From positions 1 through 44,426 of IMG/VR virus record IMGVR_UViG_3300010391_000262: a DNA stretch of 44,426 bases. The stretch is one strand, 5' to 3'. This DNA is from a virus. The notes below the pieces were generated by a model. The model was not told where the DNA came from and searched no databases. It saw only the letters and a list, made by a program, of their open reading frames with translations. Of the stretch, positions 3,120 through 43,073 are shown one piece after another (position 1 is the stretch's first letter; each line of letters begins with the position of its first letter). The translations under genes and the position numbers were made by a program.

Positions 3120-4226
3120 TTACCCGACAGCCCCGGTCCCGTCGACCCCTCCCGTGACCCCCGGTTCCCGCCGGTCCTGCTCGACCCACTGCTGGCCCGC
3201 CGTGGGGATCCACCGGGCGTAGAAGCGCAGGGTCGTCGTCGCGGTGGCGTGGCCGAGCTGGGCGGCCACATAGGTCAACGGCGCCCCGGCCGCCAGCCGG
3301 AGCGAGGCGTAGGTGTGCCGGAGGTCGTAGAGGCGCGCCTGGGGGCACCCAGCCGCCCGAGCGGCCCTACGGAAGGCCCGGGCCACCCGGGAATGGTCGA
3401 GCGGCGTGCCCTGTCGATTCTGGAAGAGCCAGGCCCCGGCGCGGGGGGCCAGCCGGCCCCAGAGCCCTGCCGGCACGTCGACCCACCGGGGCTGGCGCGT
3501 CTTGGTGGGCGCCAGCCGCCCGAGGAGCCAGGCGCGCTCGACGCGGAGGCGGTGGCCCGTCCGGTCGAGGTCTCCCGGCCTGAGCGCGTAGGCCTCGCTC
3601 GGCCGGAGCCCGGTCTTGGCCAGCAGCTCTAAGAGGAGCCCGTATGGGTTTATTCCAGACGTCTGCTGGGCCGCTCCCAGCACCCGGTCCCGGTCGGCTT
3701 GGCTCAGCGGGTGGAGCGGCTCGGGGGCCGCCGGGCGGGCCTGCCGGCGCCGGCGGCCCTGCCCGAGCAGGGGATTCGTCGGGATGAGACCATCGGCCGC
3801 GGCGTCGGAGAGGAGGGCCGAGAGGGCCGCCCGCATCAGCCGGAGGCTGTTCGGGGCGTGCCCTTCCTGCCGCTTGGCGTCCAACCAGGCCCGGAGCTGG
3901 GCGGGGCCCAGGTCACGCACCCTGGTCCCGCCCAGCGCCGGCAGCGCGTGGCCCCGCAGCCGCTCCGCATAGCTGCGGAGGGTCGTGGGGGCGAGCGCCG
4001 GCTCGATCGCGGCCAGCCAGCGGGCCGCGTACTCCTTGAGCGTCGGATCCTCGAGCGGCGCCTGGCCCCGCCGACGAGGCCCCAGCGCCCCGACTTCCCC
4101 ACGCCGCCGCCACTCGGCTTCCTGGGCCCTGCGGGCTGAGGGGAAGCCTCCCTGCTCATAGGCCCGGCCCCGATGCCGGAAGCGGTAGCGATAGGCCGCC
4201 TTGTCCTGCCGGCGATAGACGCCCAT
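3120..4226 (-). CDS. int: Tyrosine-family integrase
   Basis: This 368-aa protein is a site-specific recombinase for integration at the tRNA-Thr gene. It has an N-terminal arm-binding-type region (1-60, AP2-like basic segment YRYRFRHRGRAYEQGG), a SAM-like core-binding domain (about 62-165) and a catalytic domain (170-345). Catalytic residues seen are Arg208 (TGLRPSEA), Lys242 (PTKTR), Arg303 (DLRHT), His326 (LGH) and nucleophile Tyr336 (RFYAR). The first position of the H-x-x-R box is Tyr300 instead of His, a substitution seen in active family members. Length is normal for phage integrases. The gene points at attP and begins one base after the end of the small membrane gene upstream. Confidence 0.97.
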   Translation of the reverse strand: MGVYRRQDKAAYRYRFRHRGRAYEQGGFPSARRAQEAEWRRRGEVGALGPRRRGQAPLEDPTLKEYAARWLAAIEPALAPTTLRSYAERLRGHALPALGGTRVRDLGPAQLRAWLDAKRQEGHAPNSLRLMRAALSALLSDAAADGLIPTNPLLGQGRRRRQARPAAPEPLHPLSQADRDRVLGAAQQTSGINPYGLLLELLAKTGLRPSEAYALRPGDLDRTGHRLRVERAWLLGRLAPTKTRQPRWVDVPAGLWGRLAPRAGAWLFQNRQGTPLDHSRVARAFRRAARAAGCPQARLYDLRHTYASLRLAAGAPLTYVAAQLGHATATTTLRFYARWIPTAGQQWVEQDRREPGVTGGVDGTGAVG

Positions 4227-12008: not shown

Positions 12009-12172
12009 GCCAGGGCGCCCACAACTCCTCGCACGCCTACCTGGGCAACCGCCGCGGCCGCGGGCCGCGGCTCCTGGGCAAGCTCGGCCGTGCGGTCACC
12101 CTCAAGCGCCTTGAGGAGCTCCTGCGCGGGAGCCCGAGGCCGGCCTCCAAGGAGAAACGCCATGGATCCTAA
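12005..12172 (+). CDS. 55-aa basic peptide upstream of parB
   Basis: The GTG start overlaps the previous stop. The product is rich in Arg, Lys and Gly (LGNRRGRGPRLLGKLGRA) with a helical LKRLEELLRG segment. It overlaps the parB start by 11 bp. It may be a small DNA-binding peptide, or a leader that couples parB translation. Confidence 0.42.
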   Translation: MSQGAHNSSHAYLGNRRGRGPRLLGKLGRAVTLKRLEELLRGSPRPASKEKRHGS

Positions 12173-13628
12173 CACCAGGCTGGCAACCCTGTCGGTGGCC
12201 CAGCTCCGCGAATCGCCGCTTAACCCCCGCCGGCACTACGACGAGGACAAACTGCGGGAGCTGGCGGCCAGCATCGCGGCCAAGGGGGTGATCGAGCCCC
12301 TGCTCGTGCGGCCGCGGCCTGCTGAGGGCATGACAGACGACCTCTTCGAGATCGCCTGCGGGCATCGCCGCTTCCGGGCGGCCCAGCGGGCGGGCCTGGA
12401 CAGGCTCCCCTGCCTCGTGCGGGAGATGGACGACGTGGCCTTCCTCGAGGTGGTGGTGATCGACAACCTGCAACGCGACGACCTGCACCCGCCGGAAGAG
12501 GCCGAGGGCTACAAGCAGCTGATGACGGGCGCGGGCTACGACGTCCATCGAATCGCCGACCGCGTGGGGCGCTCGGTCAAGTACGTCTACGACCGGGTGA
12601 AGCTGCTCGAGCTCGGAGCGCCGGCCCGGCGGGCCTTCTTGGACGGCCGCTTCACCGCCGGCCACGCCATTCTCCTGGCGCGGCTCACCCCCACCCAGCA
12701 GGCCCTGGCCCTCAATCCCAAGGGCGACGGGCTCTTCGAGCAGGAGCATACGCTCTGGAGCCCCGACGAGGAGCCGGACGAGCCGGCCTACAAACCTGTC
12801 AGCGTGCGCGAGCTCGCCGGCTGGATCGACGAGCACGTCAAGTTCAATCCCAGGTCGGTCGACCCCATGCTCTTCCCGGAGACGGCCGAGGCCTTGCAGC
12901 TAGTCGGGACGGGCACCAAGGAGCGGCCGGCCACCCTCATCCCCATCACGCATGACCACTTTGTCCAGCCCGAGGCGCGCGACGGCCAGCGCATCTACGG
13001 CCCGCGGAGCTGGAAGCGCGCCGATGGACGGTTCAAGTCCAAGCCCTGCGACAAGGCCGTCCTGGGCGTGGTCGTGGTCGGCCCCGACCGCGGGCAGGCC
13101 TTCCTGGTGTGCGCGGCCAAGAAGGGCTGCGCCCGGCACTGGGCGGCCGAGCAGCGCGAGAGCGCGCACCGGGCCAAGTCGCTGGGTTCGCCGGACGCTG
13201 CCCAGGCCCGCGCGCAGCGCGAGCGCCTCAAGTACGACGCCCAGCAGGCGCAGGAGGAGGCCCTGCGGGCCCGGTGGACGAAGGCCATGCCCAAGATCCT
13301 CGAGGCCGTGGCCGCGGCCGTGAAGAAAGCCCCGGCCCGGGCCAAGGGCCACCTGGGCGCCTTCCTCCTCGGGCAGCTCGAGCTGAGCAGGCGGGCGAAG
13401 CGGGTGGACCTCGTGCCGCGCGGGACGACGGCCGAGGACCTGGTGCGCCACCTGGCGTTCCTCATGCTCTGTGACGAGGTCCAGGCCTACCAGGCGCCGG
13501 AGCGGTTTCCCGGGGTGGCCAAGGCCTTCGGCCTCGATGTGCAGAAGATCCTCGACGCCGCGGCCCCGCTCCCCAAGGCCGCCCCCGTGCAGATGGCTGC
13601 AAAGAAGAAGGGGCGCCGCGCCGCATGA
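12162..13628 (+). CDS. parB: ParB/Spo0J-family protein (no ParA partner seen)
   Basis: In this 488-aa protein, residues 8-110 match the ParB N-terminal domain: SPLNPRRHYDED, the GHRRFRAA box (67-74, the phosphate-binding GxxRxxA motif of the CTPase fold) and DNLQRDDLHPPEEA (101-114). An HTH region follows (about 125-150, HRIADRVGRSVKYVYDRVKL). The C-terminal 300 residues are long, helical and basic, unlike short plasmid ParBs. The ATG at 12162 has an AAGGAG site. No ParA or obvious parS lies nearby. Roles could be transcription silencing, origin control or prophage maintenance. Confidence 0.88.
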   Translation: MDPNTRLATLSVAQLRESPLNPRRHYDEDKLRELAASIAAKGVIEPLLVRPRPAEGMTDDLFEIACGHRRFRAAQRAGLDRLPCLVREMDDVAFLEVVVIDNLQRDDLHPPEEAEGYKQLMTGAGYDVHRIADRVGRSVKYVYDRVKLLELGAPARRAFLDGRFTAGHAILLARLTPTQQALALNPKGDGLFEQEHTLWSPDEEPDEPAYKPVSVRELAGWIDEHVKFNPRSVDPMLFPETAEALQLVGTGTKERPATLIPITHDHFVQPEARDGQRIYGPRSWKRADGRFKSKPCDKAVLGVVVVGPDRGQAFLVCAAKKGCARHWAAEQRESAHRAKSLGSPDAAQARAQRERLKYDAQQAQEEALRARWTKAMPKILEAVAAAVKKAPARAKGHLGAFLLGQLELSRRAKRVDLVPRGTTAEDLVRHLAFLMLCDEVQAYQAPERFPGVAKAFGLDVQKILDAAAPLPKAAPVQMAAKKKGRRAA

Positions 13629-13852: not shown

Positions 13853-14349
13853 CTCCCTCCCTGGACGCGGCGCGGAAGGTGGTGGAGGAGTGGCGCGTAG
13901 CACAGGGACTCAATGACCACTTTTATTCGCTGACGGCACTTGACGAGGAGAACCTTGTTGGGCGCATCGCCGCCCACGTCCGCGCCGGGGTGGAGGAGAA
14001 GGAGACAGAAATCAAGCGCCTCATCACCGCGAATGAACATTGGCATACTCGGGTGAAAGACCTCCGCGCCGCCCTCGCCGAGCGGGAGAAGGAGGTCGCC
14101 GACTTGCGCCATCTCATCGAGACCGGGGCGTCGCGGGGTGCGGAGATTAGCCCGTTTATTCGCCGCATGTTTTCCGTAGGGTCAAAGGCGAGAGCTGAGG
14201 CCGACGCCCTCCGCGCGGAGCGGGAGCGGCTGAGAGAGTTACTCCGGCACGAAATCTACCGCAACCATGAACACACAGATTCGTGTGACGCTTGCAAAGG
14301 TTCCGACGCCGCCCTCGCGCCCGAGGCCGAGCGGGGGCGGGGGAGATGA
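13849..14349 (+). CDS. Coiled-coil protein
   Basis: In this 166-aa protein, residues 45-85 and 115-145 are strongly charged helices (VEEKETEIKRLITA, LAEREKEVADLRHLIE, ADALRAERERLRELLRHE) typical of coiled coils. It ends with CDACKGS. Local base composition looks poorer in GC than its neighbours, suggesting a different history. It overlaps the J-domain gene start. Confidence 0.65.
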   Translation: MTPSLDAARKVVEEWRVAQGLNDHFYSLTALDEENLVGRIAAHVRAGVEEKETEIKRLITANEHWHTRVKDLRAALAEREKEVADLRHLIETGASRGAEISPFIRRMFSVGSKARAEADALRAERERLRELLRHEIYRNHEHTDSCDACKGSDAALAPEAERGRGR

Positions 14350-14987
14350 GCGACCAGCGATTCCCTCTTTCCTGGCCGCAAGGGTGGCGGCGCACGGGTG
14401 CATCCCACAGGCAACGCGCGCGCTTCTCTCAGAAAGAGCGCAGGTTCAATCAGGAGGGCACGTCCTCCTGGCTCTCAAGCCAATCGCTAACCGTGGCGGC
14501 AGCGAGGAAGCGTCTCGAGGGGGAACTCGATCGACTGAATGCCAGCGAGGTGGTCTTGAGCACCAATATCGCGCTGCGCCTTGACGGGCTGCCGCGGAGC
14601 GGACAAGGCGAGCCGAGCGATCCTGGTGTCGCGGTCTATTTCCGTCTGCTTGGTAAGCCCCGCACGCTGGCCTGCGACCGCTGGGACCGGGTGGCGGACA
14701 ACATGGCCGCCATCGCGGGGCACGTCGCCGCGATCCGCGCGGTGGACCGTTATGGCGTCGGTACGTTGGAACAAGCCTTCGCGGGGTACGCGGCGCTCCC
14801 CGCTTCGACTGAGGAGTGGTGGCTCGTTCTTGGCGTCGAGCCGAACGCCACAATCGAGGAGGTCGAAGAGGCTTTCCGCGACCTGGCGAAGCGCCACCAT
14901 CCCGACGCTGGCGGGGCGCCCGGTGAGATGGCTCGCCTCACGGCGGCGCGTGAGGCGGCGCGACGGGCGCTCGGAGTTCGGCCATGA
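14346..14987 (+). CDS. J-domain (DnaJ-like) protein with phage-specific N-terminus
   Basis: In this 213-aa protein, residues 156-212 form a J domain: WWLVLGVEPNATIEEVEEAF, then AKRHHPDAGG with the HPD triad at 185-187 that stimulates Hsp70 ATPase. The J domain is at the C-terminus, while residues 1-150 form a separate conserved-looking module (FPLSWPQGW, SLTVAAARKRLEGELDRL, DPGVAVYFRLLGKPRTLACDRWDRVADN). A target-binding module fused to a J domain suggests that the phage directs host DnaK to a particular complex. Phage family members of this layout exist, but no function is known to me. Confidence 0.85.
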   Translation: MSDQRFPLSWPQGWRRTGASHRQRARFSQKERRFNQEGTSSWLSSQSLTVAAARKRLEGELDRLNASEVVLSTNIALRLDGLPRSGQGEPSDPGVAVYFRLLGKPRTLACDRWDRVADNMAAIAGHVAAIRAVDRYGVGTLEQAFAGYAALPASTEEWWLVLGVEPNATIEEVEEAFRDLAKRHHPDAGGAPGEMARLTAAREAARRALGVRP

Positions 14988-15698: not shown

Positions 15699-15985
15699 GC
15701 GTCATCGTGGATGCCCTTGCGCTGTTCACCGCCACGCTGACCGAGGGGCGCTTGCTGTCACTGGCTCGCGCCGCCTCCGTGTTCGAGGGCCTGGCCGAGC
15801 TGGTTGACTACTGCGACCAGCTGGAAGAGGTCAGCGGACGGTTGGGCGTTGAAGCCGGCCGTGTGGTTCGCCTCCGGCGCTTGGCCGATGCCGCGCGCAA
15901 CCTCCAGCTCGAGGCCCAGGACTACGCCCGGGGCGAACCCCCGGGATGGCGCGGCCTGCTGCGTTCGATCGAGAGCGGCCCATGA
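15695..15985 (+). CDS. Hypothetical helical protein
   Basis: This 96-aa protein has a GTG start overlapping the previous stop. It is wholly helical in appearance, with Leu/Ala/Glu/Arg (LFTATLTEGRLLSLARAASV, LVDYCDQLEEVSGRLG, LRRLADAARNLQLEA). No motif was recognised. It is probably an oligomeric small accessory protein. Confidence 0.58.
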   Translation: MSVIVDALALFTATLTEGRLLSLARAASVFEGLAELVDYCDQLEEVSGRLGVEAGRVVRLRRLADAARNLQLEAQDYARGEPPGWRGLLRSIESGP

Positions 15986-16179
15986 GCCTCAAGCGCGTGG
16001 CCGACCACCGGACGGTCCTCGAGGTCGAGCGGAGCGTGGATGCTGCGCTGGTCGCGCTCCGCGCGGTCCAGCGGCAGGGCGGCAGCAACACGCTCGCCCA
16101 GGTGAGCATTGAGTACCGGCTTGGCCGGCTCCAAGAGCGGAAGGAGCAGCTCCAGGCCGCCGAGGGGACGCGACGATGA
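15982..16179 (+). CDS. 65-aa hypothetical helical protein
   Basis: The ATG at 15982 overlaps the previous stop, and its own stop overlaps the next ATG. The product is a charged helical peptide (ADHRTVLEVERSVDAALVAL, YRLGRLQERKEQLQAAEG). No family was recognised. Confidence 0.55.
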   Translation: MSLKRVADHRTVLEVERSVDAALVALRAVQRQGGSNTLAQVSIEYRLGRLQERKEQLQAAEGTRR

Positions 16180-16673
16180 ACCTGGGGCGCTGGTGTCGGC
16201 TCCTGGTGCTCGCCGGTCTCTGCCTGGTGCCCTCGACGGCCGCGGGGGCCGAGGCGCGCTACCACCACGCGCCCGAGGACTCGGCGATCCTGCTGCCGGA
16301 TCCCGCGGTGACGCCCGGGCAGGCCGTCCCGATGGACGTGGCGACCCTCTGTGCGACGAAGTGGGGCCTCGATGCCCGCCATGTCACCGAGCGGATGAAG
16401 GCCCAGACCTACGCCGACTACGGCGCCGTCAAGCGGAAGGGCCTCTGCTGTGAGGTCGACCACCTGGTCTCGCGCGAGCTGGGCGGCGCGGATGTGCAGG
16501 ACAACCTCTGGCCCCAGCCCTGGCGGCAGGCCCGAATGAAGGACCGCGTGGAGAATTGGCTGCACCGGGAGGTCTGTGCCGGCCGCCGGTCGCTCGCCAC
16601 GGCCCAGCGCGCGATCGCGCGGGACTGGTATCGGGTCTACCTCGAGATGCTGCGGGAGCGAGCCAAGCGATGA
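16176..16673 (+). CDS. Exported HNH-like endonuclease
   Basis: In this 165-aa protein, residues 1-26 form a secretory signal (MNLGRWCRLLVLAGLCL, then a TAAGAEA cleavage region). The mature part has CCEVDHLVSRELGG (91-104), VQDNLWPQPW (107-116) and KDRVENWLHREVC (122-134), the arrangement of HNH-type nucleases: Asp95-His96, Asn110 and a later His130. Four Cys residues in the mature part could form disulfides in the periplasm. An exported DNase could attack incoming DNA (superinfection exclusion) or salvage DNA. It lies at the end of the early operon just before the terminase genes. Confidence 0.8.
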   Translation: MNLGRWCRLLVLAGLCLVPSTAAGAEARYHHAPEDSAILLPDPAVTPGQAVPMDVATLCATKWGLDARHVTERMKAQTYADYGAVKRKGLCCEVDHLVSRELGGADVQDNLWPQPWRQARMKDRVENWLHREVCAGRRSLATAQRAIARDWYRVYLEMLRERAKR

Positions 16674-17046: not shown

Positions 17047-17403
17047 GTGCCCCGCACCAAGGCCGGCCGCTTCCTGCCGGGCGTCTCGGGCAATCCCATC
17101 GGCCGGCCGCCGGGCGTCAAGGACAAGCTCCCGCGGGGCTCCGTCGCCGCCGTCTTTCGGGACTTCATCAGCACGAAGGGCGGCCACGACAAGATGCTCG
17201 AGGCGGTCGACGCCGGCGTGAAGAATCACCGCCGGGCCCTGGGCTACTTGGAGCTGGGGGCGCGCGTGCTCGACCGCGTCGACGCCGAGATCGGCCGGCC
17301 CGTGACCATCTACCTGGTCACCAACGTCCAGTTCGACCGCCTCGTGCAGGCCGGCCAGGCGCTGGGGCTGACCGGCACCGACCGGCGCCAACTCGGGGGC
17401 TGA
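17047..17403 (+). CDS. Putative terminase small subunit (DUF5681-like N-terminus)
   Basis: This 118-aa protein contains FLPGVSGNPIGRPPGVKD (residues 9-26), the GNPxGRPxG signature of DUF5681, a domain common in small terminase-like proteins. The remaining helical part fits an oligomeric DNA-recognition subunit. It is directly upstream of terL and overlaps it by TGATG. The frame is open back to a CTG at 17008 that overlaps the previous stop, so the true start may be there. GTG 17047 is taken as the first conventional start. Confidence 0.68.
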   Translation: MPRTKAGRFLPGVSGNPIGRPPGVKDKLPRGSVAAVFRDFISTKGGHDKMLEAVDAGVKNHRRALGYLELGARVLDRVDAEIGRPVTIYLVTNVQFDRLVQAGQALGLTGTDRRQLGG

Positions 17404-18956
17404 TGCCCACCCGCTTGACCGAGCAGGACGGGGCGCTGCAAGCCCGGATTGAGTTCGAGGCCCCGCCGGTCGTCCGCAACTTCATCGAGGACCCGACCTA
17501 CTGCACGGGCTACTTCGGGCCCTGGGGCTGCGCCAAGACGACCGCCGGCGCCTTCAAGGCCTGGGGCTATGGCCAAGCCTTCCCGGGCGCCCGCATCGCG
17601 GTCATCCGCAACACCTGGCCCAACCTGCGGGACACGACCCAAAAGACCATCTTCGAGTGGTTCCCCGAGGACGTGGCCGGGCACTACGTCGCCCAGTCCA
17701 AGACCTTCTTCCTCCACCCGGCGCACGCCGGCGAGCCGCCGGTCGAGCTCATCTTCCGGGCGATGTTCGACCAGGCCGACCTGGAGAACCTGCTCGCGCT
17801 CGACCTGGCCGCGGCCTGGATCGACGAGCCCCAGGGGGGCATCAGCTACCGCGGGGAGCGGGGACTGGTGCACGAGCCCGGCATCAACCAGCGTCTCTTC
17901 GAGGCCCTGATGGCGCGGATCGGCCGGCAGCAGGGCTACCCGCCGATGGCCTGGCTGACGGGCAACCCGCCCTCGCCGTCTCACTTCATCGCGCGCCTGT
18001 TCGGCTATGACCCCGGCGCCTCCAGCTGCGACCGGCCGAAGAACCCGCGGCCCGACTATCACCTCTATCTCGGCACGCAGGAGACGAACCGGCACAATCT
18101 CACGCCCGGCTACTACGAGCGGCTCACGCGCGACATGGGCGAGAACACGCCGATGGCCCGCCGGTTCCTCAAGGGCCTCTGGATCGACTTCGCCCAGAGC
18201 AAGCCCTTCCACCGCGAGTGGATCCTCCGGGCCGGCCAGGGCGGCGCGCCCAAGATACCCGAGGACCTGCTCCTCGAGATCGGGTTGGACCCGGCCATCA
18301 GCAAGAAGGACGCCGCCAGCAAATCGGCCATCGTGATCGGGGGCCAAGTCGAAGCGGGCGACCTGCGTGGCCGGAAGTTCATCACCCACGCCGAAGCCGG
18401 GCACTGGACGGTGCTTGAGACCGTCAACCGCCTGTTGCTGCTCTGCCGGCGGTTCAACGTGCGCCGCGTGCGCATCGAGAAGGTGGCCTTCCAGGCGGCG
18501 GTGGGCGAGGTCCTCGACCAGAAGGCGCGGGAGGCCGGGTTGAACGTCGTGGTCCAGCTCGTCACGCCCGACGCCGACAAGCTGACGCGGGCCAACGCTT
18601 GGGCGCCGATGGTCGAGGCCGGGGAGCTCCTCTTCGGGCCGGGCATGGAGGAGCTGGTCGAGGCGATGCTGGCGGTGCCCGACGACGAGACCGCCTGGGA
18701 CTATGTCGACGCCGCGGGCTATCTCGTGCGCGGCTTCCGCAAGGTGCAGGCGGCCGCGGAGCGCCTGCCGACGGAGGATCCCGACACGCCCCTGGCCTCG
18801 AGCTACGCCACGCGCCCGCAGACCCAGCCCCGGTGGGCCGAGCCCGCCCCCGGCGCGCCGCTCCGGGCCCGCCCGGTGGCGAAATCTGGTGACAGGCGAC
18901 GGGCGACGGGCTATGCTGTGACGCAGCCGAGAGCGCCGCGCAGGCCGAGTCGGTAG
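17403..18956 (+). CDS. terL: Terminase large subunit
   Basis: This 517-aa protein is the packaging ATPase-nuclease. The ATPase domain has the Walker A-like GPWGCAKTTAG (39-49, Lys45) and the Walker B strand LAAAWIDEP (135-143, Asp141/Glu142), followed by the coupling segment WLTGNP (184-189). The RNase-H-fold nuclease domain has Asp296 in IGLDPAIS, Glu359 in RIEK and Asp433/Asp436 in WDYVDAAGY. These are the expected acidic residues in order. The start overlaps the small subunit stop. The in-frame extension upstream to 16935 is a shadow. Confidence 0.95.
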   Translation: MPTRLTEQDGALQARIEFEAPPVVRNFIEDPTYCTGYFGPWGCAKTTAGAFKAWGYGQAFPGARIAVIRNTWPNLRDTTQKTIFEWFPEDVAGHYVAQSKTFFLHPAHAGEPPVELIFRAMFDQADLENLLALDLAAAWIDEPQGGISYRGERGLVHEPGINQRLFEALMARIGRQQGYPPMAWLTGNPPSPSHFIARLFGYDPGASSCDRPKNPRPDYHLYLGTQETNRHNLTPGYYERLTRDMGENTPMARRFLKGLWIDFAQSKPFHREWILRAGQGGAPKIPEDLLLEIGLDPAISKKDAASKSAIVIGGQVEAGDLRGRKFITHAEAGHWTVLETVNRLLLLCRRFNVRRVRIEKVAFQAAVGEVLDQKAREAGLNVVVQLVTPDADKLTRANAWAPMVEAGELLFGPGMEELVEAMLAVPDDETAWDYVDAAGYLVRGFRKVQAAAERLPTEDPDTPLASSYATRPQTQPRWAEPAPGAPLRARPVAKSGDRRRATGYAVTQPRAPRRPSR

Positions 18957-40924: not shown

Positions 40925-42637
40925 GTGGGCGCATTTGACATGGGCGGCGCGGCGACAGGCCTCGTGGAAGGCCTGACCACGGGCGCAAACCTCGCCCAGA
41001 ACGAGCGCCGGCTCCGTGTGCAGGAGCAGACCGCCGACATGGCGCTCTATCTGAACGGCATTAAGAGCGTGCTCGAGGATCCCGCGACGGCCGGCAGCGT
41101 GAGCCAGATGTTCGAGGCGCGCGGCATGAAGCTCGACCCCGCGATCGTGCAGGCCGGCCAGCAAGGCTTGGACGCCCTCGGCCATCTCACCAACTTCGTG
41201 CTCAACCAGGGCGACATCACGCCCGACGTCGGGCAGGCGATGGCGAAAAACCCGTTCACTGCCAAGATTCTCCAGGGCAAGCCCGAGCTGATGAAGCTGG
41301 TGGCCGAGACCGTCAAGGCCAAGCGGATGGGCGTGAGCCTCAAGGCGTTCAACGACGACGTCGCCCAGTATCAGCAGGCCAACAACGAGCCCGACTGGCA
41401 CGCCGCGGCCGCCCAGGTGGCGCGCACGAAGCCCGAGTACGCCCAGCTCTATCTCGGGGCGGGGCGCGACAACCCCGGGCTCATCCAGGCCGTCGCTCCG
41501 GCCGAGGCCGGTAAGCAGGCGGCGCGCCCGCAAATCTCGACGATTGTGCGGCTGGCCGAGACGGGCCGGATTCATCCGTCCCAGGCCATCGCCGAGCTGG
41601 AGGGCCTGCCCGGCGGGCCCGAGGCCATCCAGCGGTCGGCCGTCCTGCAGGGCTACGCGGCCCAGCTCCGCGCCCAGGGGACCGTGACCGGAACGGCGGC
41701 GGGGGTGCAGACCCCCTTGCCGCCTTCCCCCGTGCCCGCGATGGGGCCGGGGGCGCCGGTCATCCCAGCCGGCCCGCCGGTCCGCAACATCGGGGACGTG
41801 GTCCCCGGCGGGCCAGCCGCCGCCGCCCCACCCGCCGCCGGCGGGCTGCACTTCCCCGGCTTCGAGCCCAAGCTCAACATCGGAGACTTCGGCGCCGGCG
41901 GCACGCCACCCGAGGAGGCCGCTGGCCGGTTCCAGGTTTACCCGCTCGGCGGCGCGAGGATCCCGGGGGCCACGGGCGAGGCCCCGTTGCCGACGGCCGG
42001 CTCGGTGCTCACGAGCGCGCGGGCGGCCGAGCGCGGCCGCCGGAACATCGACGACTACGTTCAGGTGGCGAGCCAAGGCCGCTACAAGACCGCGGCCGAG
42101 GTCCCACCGGAGGACATCGGAGTGCTGTCGTCTGCAATTTCCCTCATGACCGAAGAGGAGCGGGCGCGACGCCCCGAGACCGCGCCATCGATCGCGCAGA
42201 CCGAGGGGGGCCTCGCCACCGTGGACCGGCGCTCGGGCAAGGCCACGCCCGTCACGGGGCCGGGCGGCGAGCAGGCCCAGCCGCCCGCCAAGGGGATGGC
42301 GGCCATCATCAAGAAGGTCGAGGAAGCCGAGCGGGCGAAGATCGGCGGCGCGCCGGCTGCGGCGCCCAAGCCTGGCGGGCGCAGCCTCAGCGACATCGCG
42401 GCCGGGTCGGATGCTGCGGCTGGGCTCAAGAAGCCGGGCGCCGCGCCGGCGGGTGAGACCAAGCCGGTCACGGGCGGCGTCCAGCAGTTCGAGGTCCAGG
42501 CCCCGGCGGCGGGCATGACGGGCAACGCCATGGCGGCCGCGGCCAAGGCCGAAGGCCAGCGCCTCATGCGCAAATACAACCTGAGCCCGCAGGAGGCGGT
42601 CGCAGTTATGCGTACCGCTGGTTGGAATGTTCGGTAG
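40925..42637 (+). CDS. Ejection/internal virion protein candidate 3
   Basis: This 570-aa protein starts at the GTG at 40925, with GAGGAGGAC upstream. It has a helical N-terminal 250 residues (LAQNERRLRVQEQTADMALY, then WHAAAAQVARTKPEYAQLY). A Pro/Gly/Ala-rich low-complexity middle follows (270-380), and then helices again (MAAIIKKVEEAERAK). It ends NLSPQEAVAVMRTAGWNVR. Its 3' end overlaps the LAGLIDADG gene by 11 bp. Internal virion role by position and composition. Confidence 0.62.
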   Translation: MGAFDMGGAATGLVEGLTTGANLAQNERRLRVQEQTADMALYLNGIKSVLEDPATAGSVSQMFEARGMKLDPAIVQAGQQGLDALGHLTNFVLNQGDITPDVGQAMAKNPFTAKILQGKPELMKLVAETVKAKRMGVSLKAFNDDVAQYQQANNEPDWHAAAAQVARTKPEYAQLYLGAGRDNPGLIQAVAPAEAGKQAARPQISTIVRLAETGRIHPSQAIAELEGLPGGPEAIQRSAVLQGYAAQLRAQGTVTGTAAGVQTPLPPSPVPAMGPGAPVIPAGPPVRNIGDVVPGGPAAAAPPAAGGLHFPGFEPKLNIGDFGAGGTPPEEAAGRFQVYPLGGARIPGATGEAPLPTAGSVLTSARAAERGRRNIDDYVQVASQGRYKTAAEVPPEDIGVLSSAISLMTEEERARRPETAPSIAQTEGGLATVDRRSGKATPVTGPGGEQAQPPAKGMAAIIKKVEEAERAKIGGAPAAAPKPGGRSLSDIAAGSDAAAGLKKPGAAPAGETKPVTGGVQQFEVQAPAAGMTGNAMAAAAKAEGQRLMRKYNLSPQEAVAVMRTAGWNVR

Positions 42638-43073
42638 TGACCGGCGCGAGTGGCTGTGTTGGACGGCCGGATTCCTCGATGGCGAGGGGTGCTTCACTCT
42701 CTCTGCCGCGAAGCTCCGCGTCACGGCCTGCCAGAATGATCCCGAGCTCCTGCGATGGTTGCAGGAGCGCGCCGGGGGGCGAATCTATTTGCGGAAACCA
42801 CGCCCCGCCGCGGCCCGGCCAGGCTACTGGGCTCGCCAAGGCCAGAGCGTCTGGCAACTCTGTGGACCCCCAGCAGCCTCCCTGATGGAAGAACTCAAGC
42901 CGCTTATGAGCGCGCGCCGCCAAGTCCAGATCGGGCGGGTCCTAGCGGGCTACGCGGCACGGCCACGGCGCCGCGGATCGGCGACGCGGCGGGACTCCTC
43001 ATCGGCCATCCGTAAGGGCTGGGCCACTCGACGGGCCGGCGCAGACCCACGCCAACTCCGCATCGTCGGCTGA
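42627..43073 (+). CDS. Free-standing LAGLIDADG homing endonuclease
   Basis: This 148-aa protein contains CWTAGFLDGEGCFTLS (11-26), the single LAGLIDADG motif with the Asp-Gly-Glu catalytic turn. A DNA-contact region (NDPELLRWLQERAGGRIYLR) and WQLCGPPAASLMEELKPLMS follow, in the family order. One-motif proteins act as homodimers and cut long asymmetric sites. It is placed between ejection-protein genes with no intron visible, so it is a stand-alone mobile gene. The C-terminus is basic (PRRRGSATRRDS). Confidence 0.85.
   Translation: MFGSDRREWLCWTAGFLDGEGCFTLSAAKLRVTACQNDPELLRWLQERAGGRIYLRKPRPAAARPGYWARQGQSVWQLCGPPAASLMEELKPLMSARRQVQIGRVLAGYAARPRRRGSATRRDSSSAIRKGWATRRAGADPRQLRIVG

Follow-up and report, generated by a model that had tools for sequence, protein, structure and literature searches.

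A putative Sec-exported, disulfide-stabilised HNH-type nuclease encoded in an operon leading into the terminase and head genes of a phage

T4 endonuclease VII, a resolvase of Holliday junctions that works in the cytoplasm, contains a zinc site, and Spd1-type enzymes are DRGH, or non-specific, endonucleases. Spd1 itself is a secreted prophage DNase of streptococci (PMC7538557). The membrane-bound host defence nuclease SNIPE cuts phage DNA during injection; it is a GIY-YIG enzyme whose nuclease domain lies on the cytoplasmic side (Nature 2026, PMC13190303). HNH-type proteins encoded beside a phage terminase, such as HK97 gp74 (Kala et al. 2014, cited in PMC8951688), form a packaging group, and genes in this position are commonly taken as packaging factors (as in PMC8951688).

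We examined a soil-phage gene in the window, by which we mean the whole stretch of DNA analysed here, an entire virus record of 44,426 bases with 70.8% GC. A preliminary description had placed an HNH-like nuclease with a secretory signal peptide at 16176-16673 of this stretch, and its reading frame proved correct to the base at both ends (Table 1). The codon-position GC of this frame (0.73/0.50/0.92), together with the ATGA 4-bp overlaps that join it to both neighbours, indicates that it is a real gene within an operon. The plus-strand operon leads into the terminase and head genes, with the terminase large subunit gene 730 bp downstream of the nuclease gene. No counterpart of the gene that directly follows the nuclease adjoins the other phage copies, and as it also matches no family we dropped it as a candidate immunity partner.

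Table 1. Coordinates of the nuclease gene, its predicted features and its neighbours in the window, and loci of small genes that follow bacterial copies
Feature	Position	Strand	Remarks
HNH-type nuclease CDS, product predicted to be exported	16176..16673	+	165 aa, ATG start, TGA stop; 116 relatives
Signal peptide, residues 1-25	16176..16250	+	predicted cleavage after A25; from leader score
Cys59	16350..16352	+	predicted disulfide partner of Cys134; from co-occurrence in relatives
Cys91-Cys92 vicinal pair	16446..16451	+	just before active site; marks phage-rich clade
E93-V94-D95-H96, active-site strand	16452..16463	+	predicted metal ligand D and general-base H; E, D and H in 117/117
N110, the 'N' of HNH	16503..16505	+	117/117
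K122-D123 and E126, long helix after HNH strands	16539..16553	+	115/117, 115/117 and 114/117; the rest are gaps
Cys134	16575..16577	+	predicted disulfide partner of Cys59
Small upstream gene	15982..16179	+	4-bp overlap with nuclease start; no PHROG match
Downstream gene, 113 aa	16670..17011	+	4-bp overlap with nuclease stop; no PHROG or Pfam match
Short gene directly before terminase large subunit gene	17047..17403	+	possible small-subunit position; marginal match to an unnamed PHROG
Terminase large subunit	17403..18956	+	phrog_38, E 1.9e-19
Family A loci (gene after nuclease)	L069, L070, L071, L072, L073, L074, L080, L081, L086, L099, L113		
Family B loci	L003:6609-6953, L005:5711-6031, L006:5784-6083, L083:2001-2429, L087:5651-5983		

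Residues 1–25 of the nuclease (MNLGRWCRLLVLAGLCLVPSTAAGA, followed by E) score as a Sec signal peptide on a home-made measure of h-region, charge and A-x-A site. One shuffled version of the protein in 5000 reaches this level, as does one of the 71 other genes in the window. A hydrophobic leader is present in 110 of the 116 relatives, and the six without one mostly reflect truncation of the ORF or an artefact in the choice of start; leader score and relatives thus both uphold the signal peptide claimed earlier. A lipobox-like site occurs in 17 relatives. Several plasmid relatives contain a sunset domain and one viral relative (L036) a C-terminal Excalibur domain (E 1.4e-17), and these fusions would suit a protein at the cell surface or outside the cell.

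The four cysteines that had been counted in the mature protein are indeed there (C59, C91, C92 and C134), and their distribution among 110 unique domains is strongly paired. Both C59 and C134 occur in 106 domains and neither occurs in 2, the single occurrences being one real case (L037) and one fragment. C91 and C92 occur together in 25 domains and are both missing in 82; the three members with C91 alone (L035, L054 and L059) bear another cysteine in the preceding loop. An extra cysteine at PDxxC is accompanied by exactly one upstream cysteine partner in 23 of 23 members. Disulfides would produce such a loss and gain of cysteines in pairs, and they would suit an oxidising compartment; C91 and C92 probably form a vicinal disulfide shortly before D95. 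The window protein thus combines a Sec signal peptide, by our home-made score, with paired cysteines. With the leaders of the relatives, the Excalibur and sunset fusions and the lipoprotein-like forms, the predicted export of the nuclease to an oxidising compartment is well supported.

The nuclease core reads DH...N...K-D...E. No substitution occurs at E93, D95, H96, G104 or N110 in any of the 117 sequences (the window protein and its relatives), and R68, K122, D123, E126, C59, C134 and W151 are nearly invariant. The catalytic histidine beside a metal-binding aspartate, followed by an asparagine, which marks HNH (beta-beta-alpha-metal) enzymes, is therefore found in every member. The preliminary description had read DH, N and H residues in HNH order; D95-H96 and N110 hold throughout the family, but the histidine taken as the third, H130, is conserved in the near clade only, and the place of the canonical third histidine, which relatives have within A-H-x-K-D, is taken by R120 in the window protein. 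Histidine occupies position 120 in 69 of the 117 sequences, and mostly R, Y, K, N or F is found there otherwise.

Profile searches place the protein outside existing models. It reaches no Pfam or NCBIfam model, scores 12.9 bits with Pfam PF01844 (HNH) against a gathering cut-off of 21.4, with its relatives likewise below the cut-off, and finds its best profile match in endonuclease VII (PHROG 1035; residues 83–162, E 0.0029). An AlphaFold2 model computed from 44 rows (the window protein together with relatives from viruses) has a pLDDT of 89.5 and shows strands at 93–96 and 111–114 and a helix at 116–134. A sequence search of PDB chains with the nuclease gave no match, while the top PDB ranks in Foldseek and VIA-align are mostly HNH domains, as weak matches (best E 0.31, best Z 4.7), among them Cas8-HNH, McrA, the Cas9 HNH domain, GmeHNH and Cap5. 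In BFVD, three viral proteins match (E 5e-6 to 2e-5); two carry the annotation HNHc, and these HNHc proteins probably belong to the same family as the window nuclease. The motif supports an HNH-type assignment, with which the fold is consistent without proving it; the identity as a nuclease proposed earlier is supported by the invariant active-site core and by the HNH domains that head the list of fold matches.

Each of the described systems resembles the window nuclease in part. HK97 gp74 is likewise a small HNH-type phage protein with a terminase-adjacent gene, but it carries the cysteine pair CVMC and lacks a leader, whereas the window nuclease has a leader and paired cysteines that do not form a CxxC, and BLASTP aligned the two at no E value up to 100. 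On account of these differences we do not file the window nuclease with the packaging HNH proteins, despite its similar place, and the contrast drawn earlier with cytoplasmic terminase-linked HNH proteins is borne out. Spd1 is also a phage-borne nuclease exported on a signal peptide; its DRGH motif is absent from the window nuclease, which has EVDH, and relatives match PF13930 below the cut-off only. The likeness to SNIPE would lie in the cutting of phage DNA as it enters through the envelope, but SNIPE is a GIY-YIG enzyme of the cytoplasmic side, whereas the window nuclease has an HNH-type core behind a predicted cleavable leader and a predicted location on the outer side; searches of Pfam, NCBIfam and PHROG gave no GIY-YIG profile match in it. 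T4 endonuclease VII shares the DH...N core, with the weak profile match given above, and unlike the window nuclease has no leader. Among extracellular bacterial nucleases, those with an Excalibur domain recall L036, which bears such a domain C-terminally, unlike the window protein. In the L036 frame (L036:999-1715), on a viral contig, a lipoprotein-like leader is followed by an HNH domain fused to the calcium-binding Excalibur domain.

Used alone as query, the window nuclease found no relative among viral contigs or named phages. By tblastn, relatives were found on 45 plasmids, whose records label them mostly 'hypothetical protein' or else 'HNH endonuclease', and a pattern scan built on these plasmid relatives then gave 53 viral contigs and, after them, 55 bacterial genome contigs; 116 relatives from the three sources were gathered. 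The bacterial carriers include Acidobacteriota, Gemmatimonadota, Chloroflexota, Armatimonadota, Deinococcota and Patescibacteria, and others. In the tree, the window protein groups with three viral copies (100/96) within a mostly viral clade that bears the C91-C92 pair; two of the bacterial members of this clade are prophage-like by their neighbours (L064 and L068) and two are not (L063 and L065). The wider tree intermixes bacteria, plasmids and viruses, the pattern that a mobile gene should give. Among the open-licence papers searched, none describes this nuclease family.

Downstream of bacterial copies there is often a gene for a small conserved protein that has no leader; these proteins fall into two unrelated families, neither matching any of the scanned Pfam families above cut-off. 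Family A (11 loci) has about 100 residues and ends TSCVMLRD....EYAD, and some of its genes overlap the nuclease gene by 4 bp; family B (5 loci), of about 106 residues, accompanies Methylococcales and Deinococcota copies. These proteins could be nuclease inhibitors. Phage copies of the nuclease have neither partner. Because copies with the C91-C92 pair and copies with a partner never overlap in our set, the pair might act as a redox lock that keeps the enzyme off in the reducing cytoplasm and turns it on once oxidised outside, which would give a clade of soil-phage nucleases serving as a barrier in the envelope against superinfection without a partner protein. We regard this proposal as doubtful, and clade membership alone could be sufficient cause for the lack of overlap.

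That the gene product is a DNA-cutting enzyme sent out of the cell interior and held by disulfides is very probable from the features above. Taken as a whole, the best explanation is a Sec-exported, disulfide-stabilised HNH (beta-beta-alpha metal) nuclease of a late operon that would act in the periplasm or on released DNA, a reading we hold with somewhat better than even confidence. The nuclease would be expressed from its plus-strand operon, which continues into the genes for terminase and head; its 25-residue signal peptide would be removed, and the protein would fold outside the cytoplasm, where the C59-C134 disulfide and probably also the vicinal C91-C92 disulfide by the active site would form. 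DNA would then be hydrolysed with D95 and N110 holding the metal and H96 acting as the general base. Export, the paired cysteines and the conserved core are well supported by computation; enzyme activity, timing, substrate and benefit we infer. The benefit may be the cutting of DNA on its way through the envelope or located in it, above all the DNA of superinfecting phages. The preliminary description had proposed such a role, with incoming phage or plasmid DNA being cut and the infected cell protected; superinfection exclusion is plausible and the leading candidate, to which we give a little less than an even chance, and against it stands the short time for which protection by a late gene would last.

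The genomic positions of other phage copies bear on what the enzyme does. The carrier phages have almost no other gene in common with the window, and a recognisable integrase is present on 7 of 49 contigs. Most of the large ORF clusters were antisense or shadow ORFs and were left out. In several of these otherwise unrelated phages the gene is flanked by TerS and TerL, or it follows TerL immediately and precedes the portal gene (L011, L013, L014, L016, L018 and L024). Among 25 lineages with a located terminase, with distances compiled by hand and lineages taken as independent, 5 have the nuclease gene within 1 kb of the terminase where 1.4 were expected (p about 0.01), and in 9 the distance is no more than 2.5 kb, with 3.5 expected (p about 0.003). 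Such proximity above random placement is what a packaging role would give as well, that is, a terminase-associated HNH protein that stays in the cytoplasm with TerL and TerS and whose leader is incidental. Leader and paired cysteines are conserved, however, plasmid and chromosomal relatives lie away from any terminase, and some phage copies belong to operons for lysis or the baseplate. The shared setting is the late region and not packaging itself; with neither an alignment to gp74 nor its CxxC pair, a packaging protein is very unlikely. The late-operon position agrees with an exported DNase that acts at or after lysis, a periplasmic store of which would digest released chromosomal or matrix DNA and so keep progeny phage from being trapped. 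In L023 the gene stands between those for an M15-type endolysin and a small membrane protein, in L018 it precedes a GTA_holin_3TM gene and in L064 a small membrane-protein gene, and the extracellular-type domains of some relatives point the same way. The gene is not confined to lysis cassettes, though, being found also in terminase operons and, in L022, inside a baseplate operon, and the lipobox-like forms would remain on the cell. Lysis clean-up fits the genome positions about as well as superinfection exclusion does, and we consider it a close rival, though less likely than not.

Two further readings concern the activity itself. The enzyme could be an antibacterial toxin, released to kill neighbouring cells as bacteriocin nucleases do, and in favour of this are the possible inhibitors encoded after bacterial copies, frequently with a 4-bp overlap; yet the protein has no receptor-binding or translocation domain and the phage copies go without partner genes, and this role seems to us quite improbable. 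Alternatively, nuclease activity may have been lost, leaving a DNA-binding or structural envelope protein, as the change of the canonical third histidine to arginine at position 120 and the failure to reach any HMM cut-off might suggest. Position 120 varies widely across the family, however, and D95, H96, N110, K122, D123 and E126 are all retained, which makes an inactive domain the least probable of these explanations.

If the reading as an exported nuclease is right, a nuclease family that spans phages, plasmids and many bacterial phyla, and that has no Pfam or NCBIfam model, works outside the cytoplasm; the packaging reading would then be wrong here, and annotation from position only can mislead. 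The family lets envelope nucleases be tested as a phage weapon that stops rivals, a question made topical by SNIPE (PMC13190303).

The virus collection searched contains no close phage of the window, and a pattern search found no relative of its terminase. As to the host, Terriglobia and a Rokubacterium are among the bacteria whose copies stand nearest to the nuclease in the tree, and the GC content of the window is 70.8%, but the window terminase is essentially absent from 95 genomes of that phylum. In another phage, an ORF that looks GIY-YIG-like by eye lies directly 3' of the exported HNH gene (L012:8393-8800). Elsewhere in the window, sequence reading points to an integrase gene at 3120-4226 (-), and inspection by eye to a long protein resembling ParB, with much additional sequence at its C-terminus, at 12162-13628 (+). 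The product of 14346-14987 (+) matches PHROG 9210, of unknown function (E 3.9e-57), and has a C-terminal J-domain-like HPD motif. Among the structural genes, the ORF at 42627-43073 (+), which starts MFGSDRREWLCWTAGFLDGEGCFTLSA, has by eye the look of a LAGLIDADG-type homing endonuclease.
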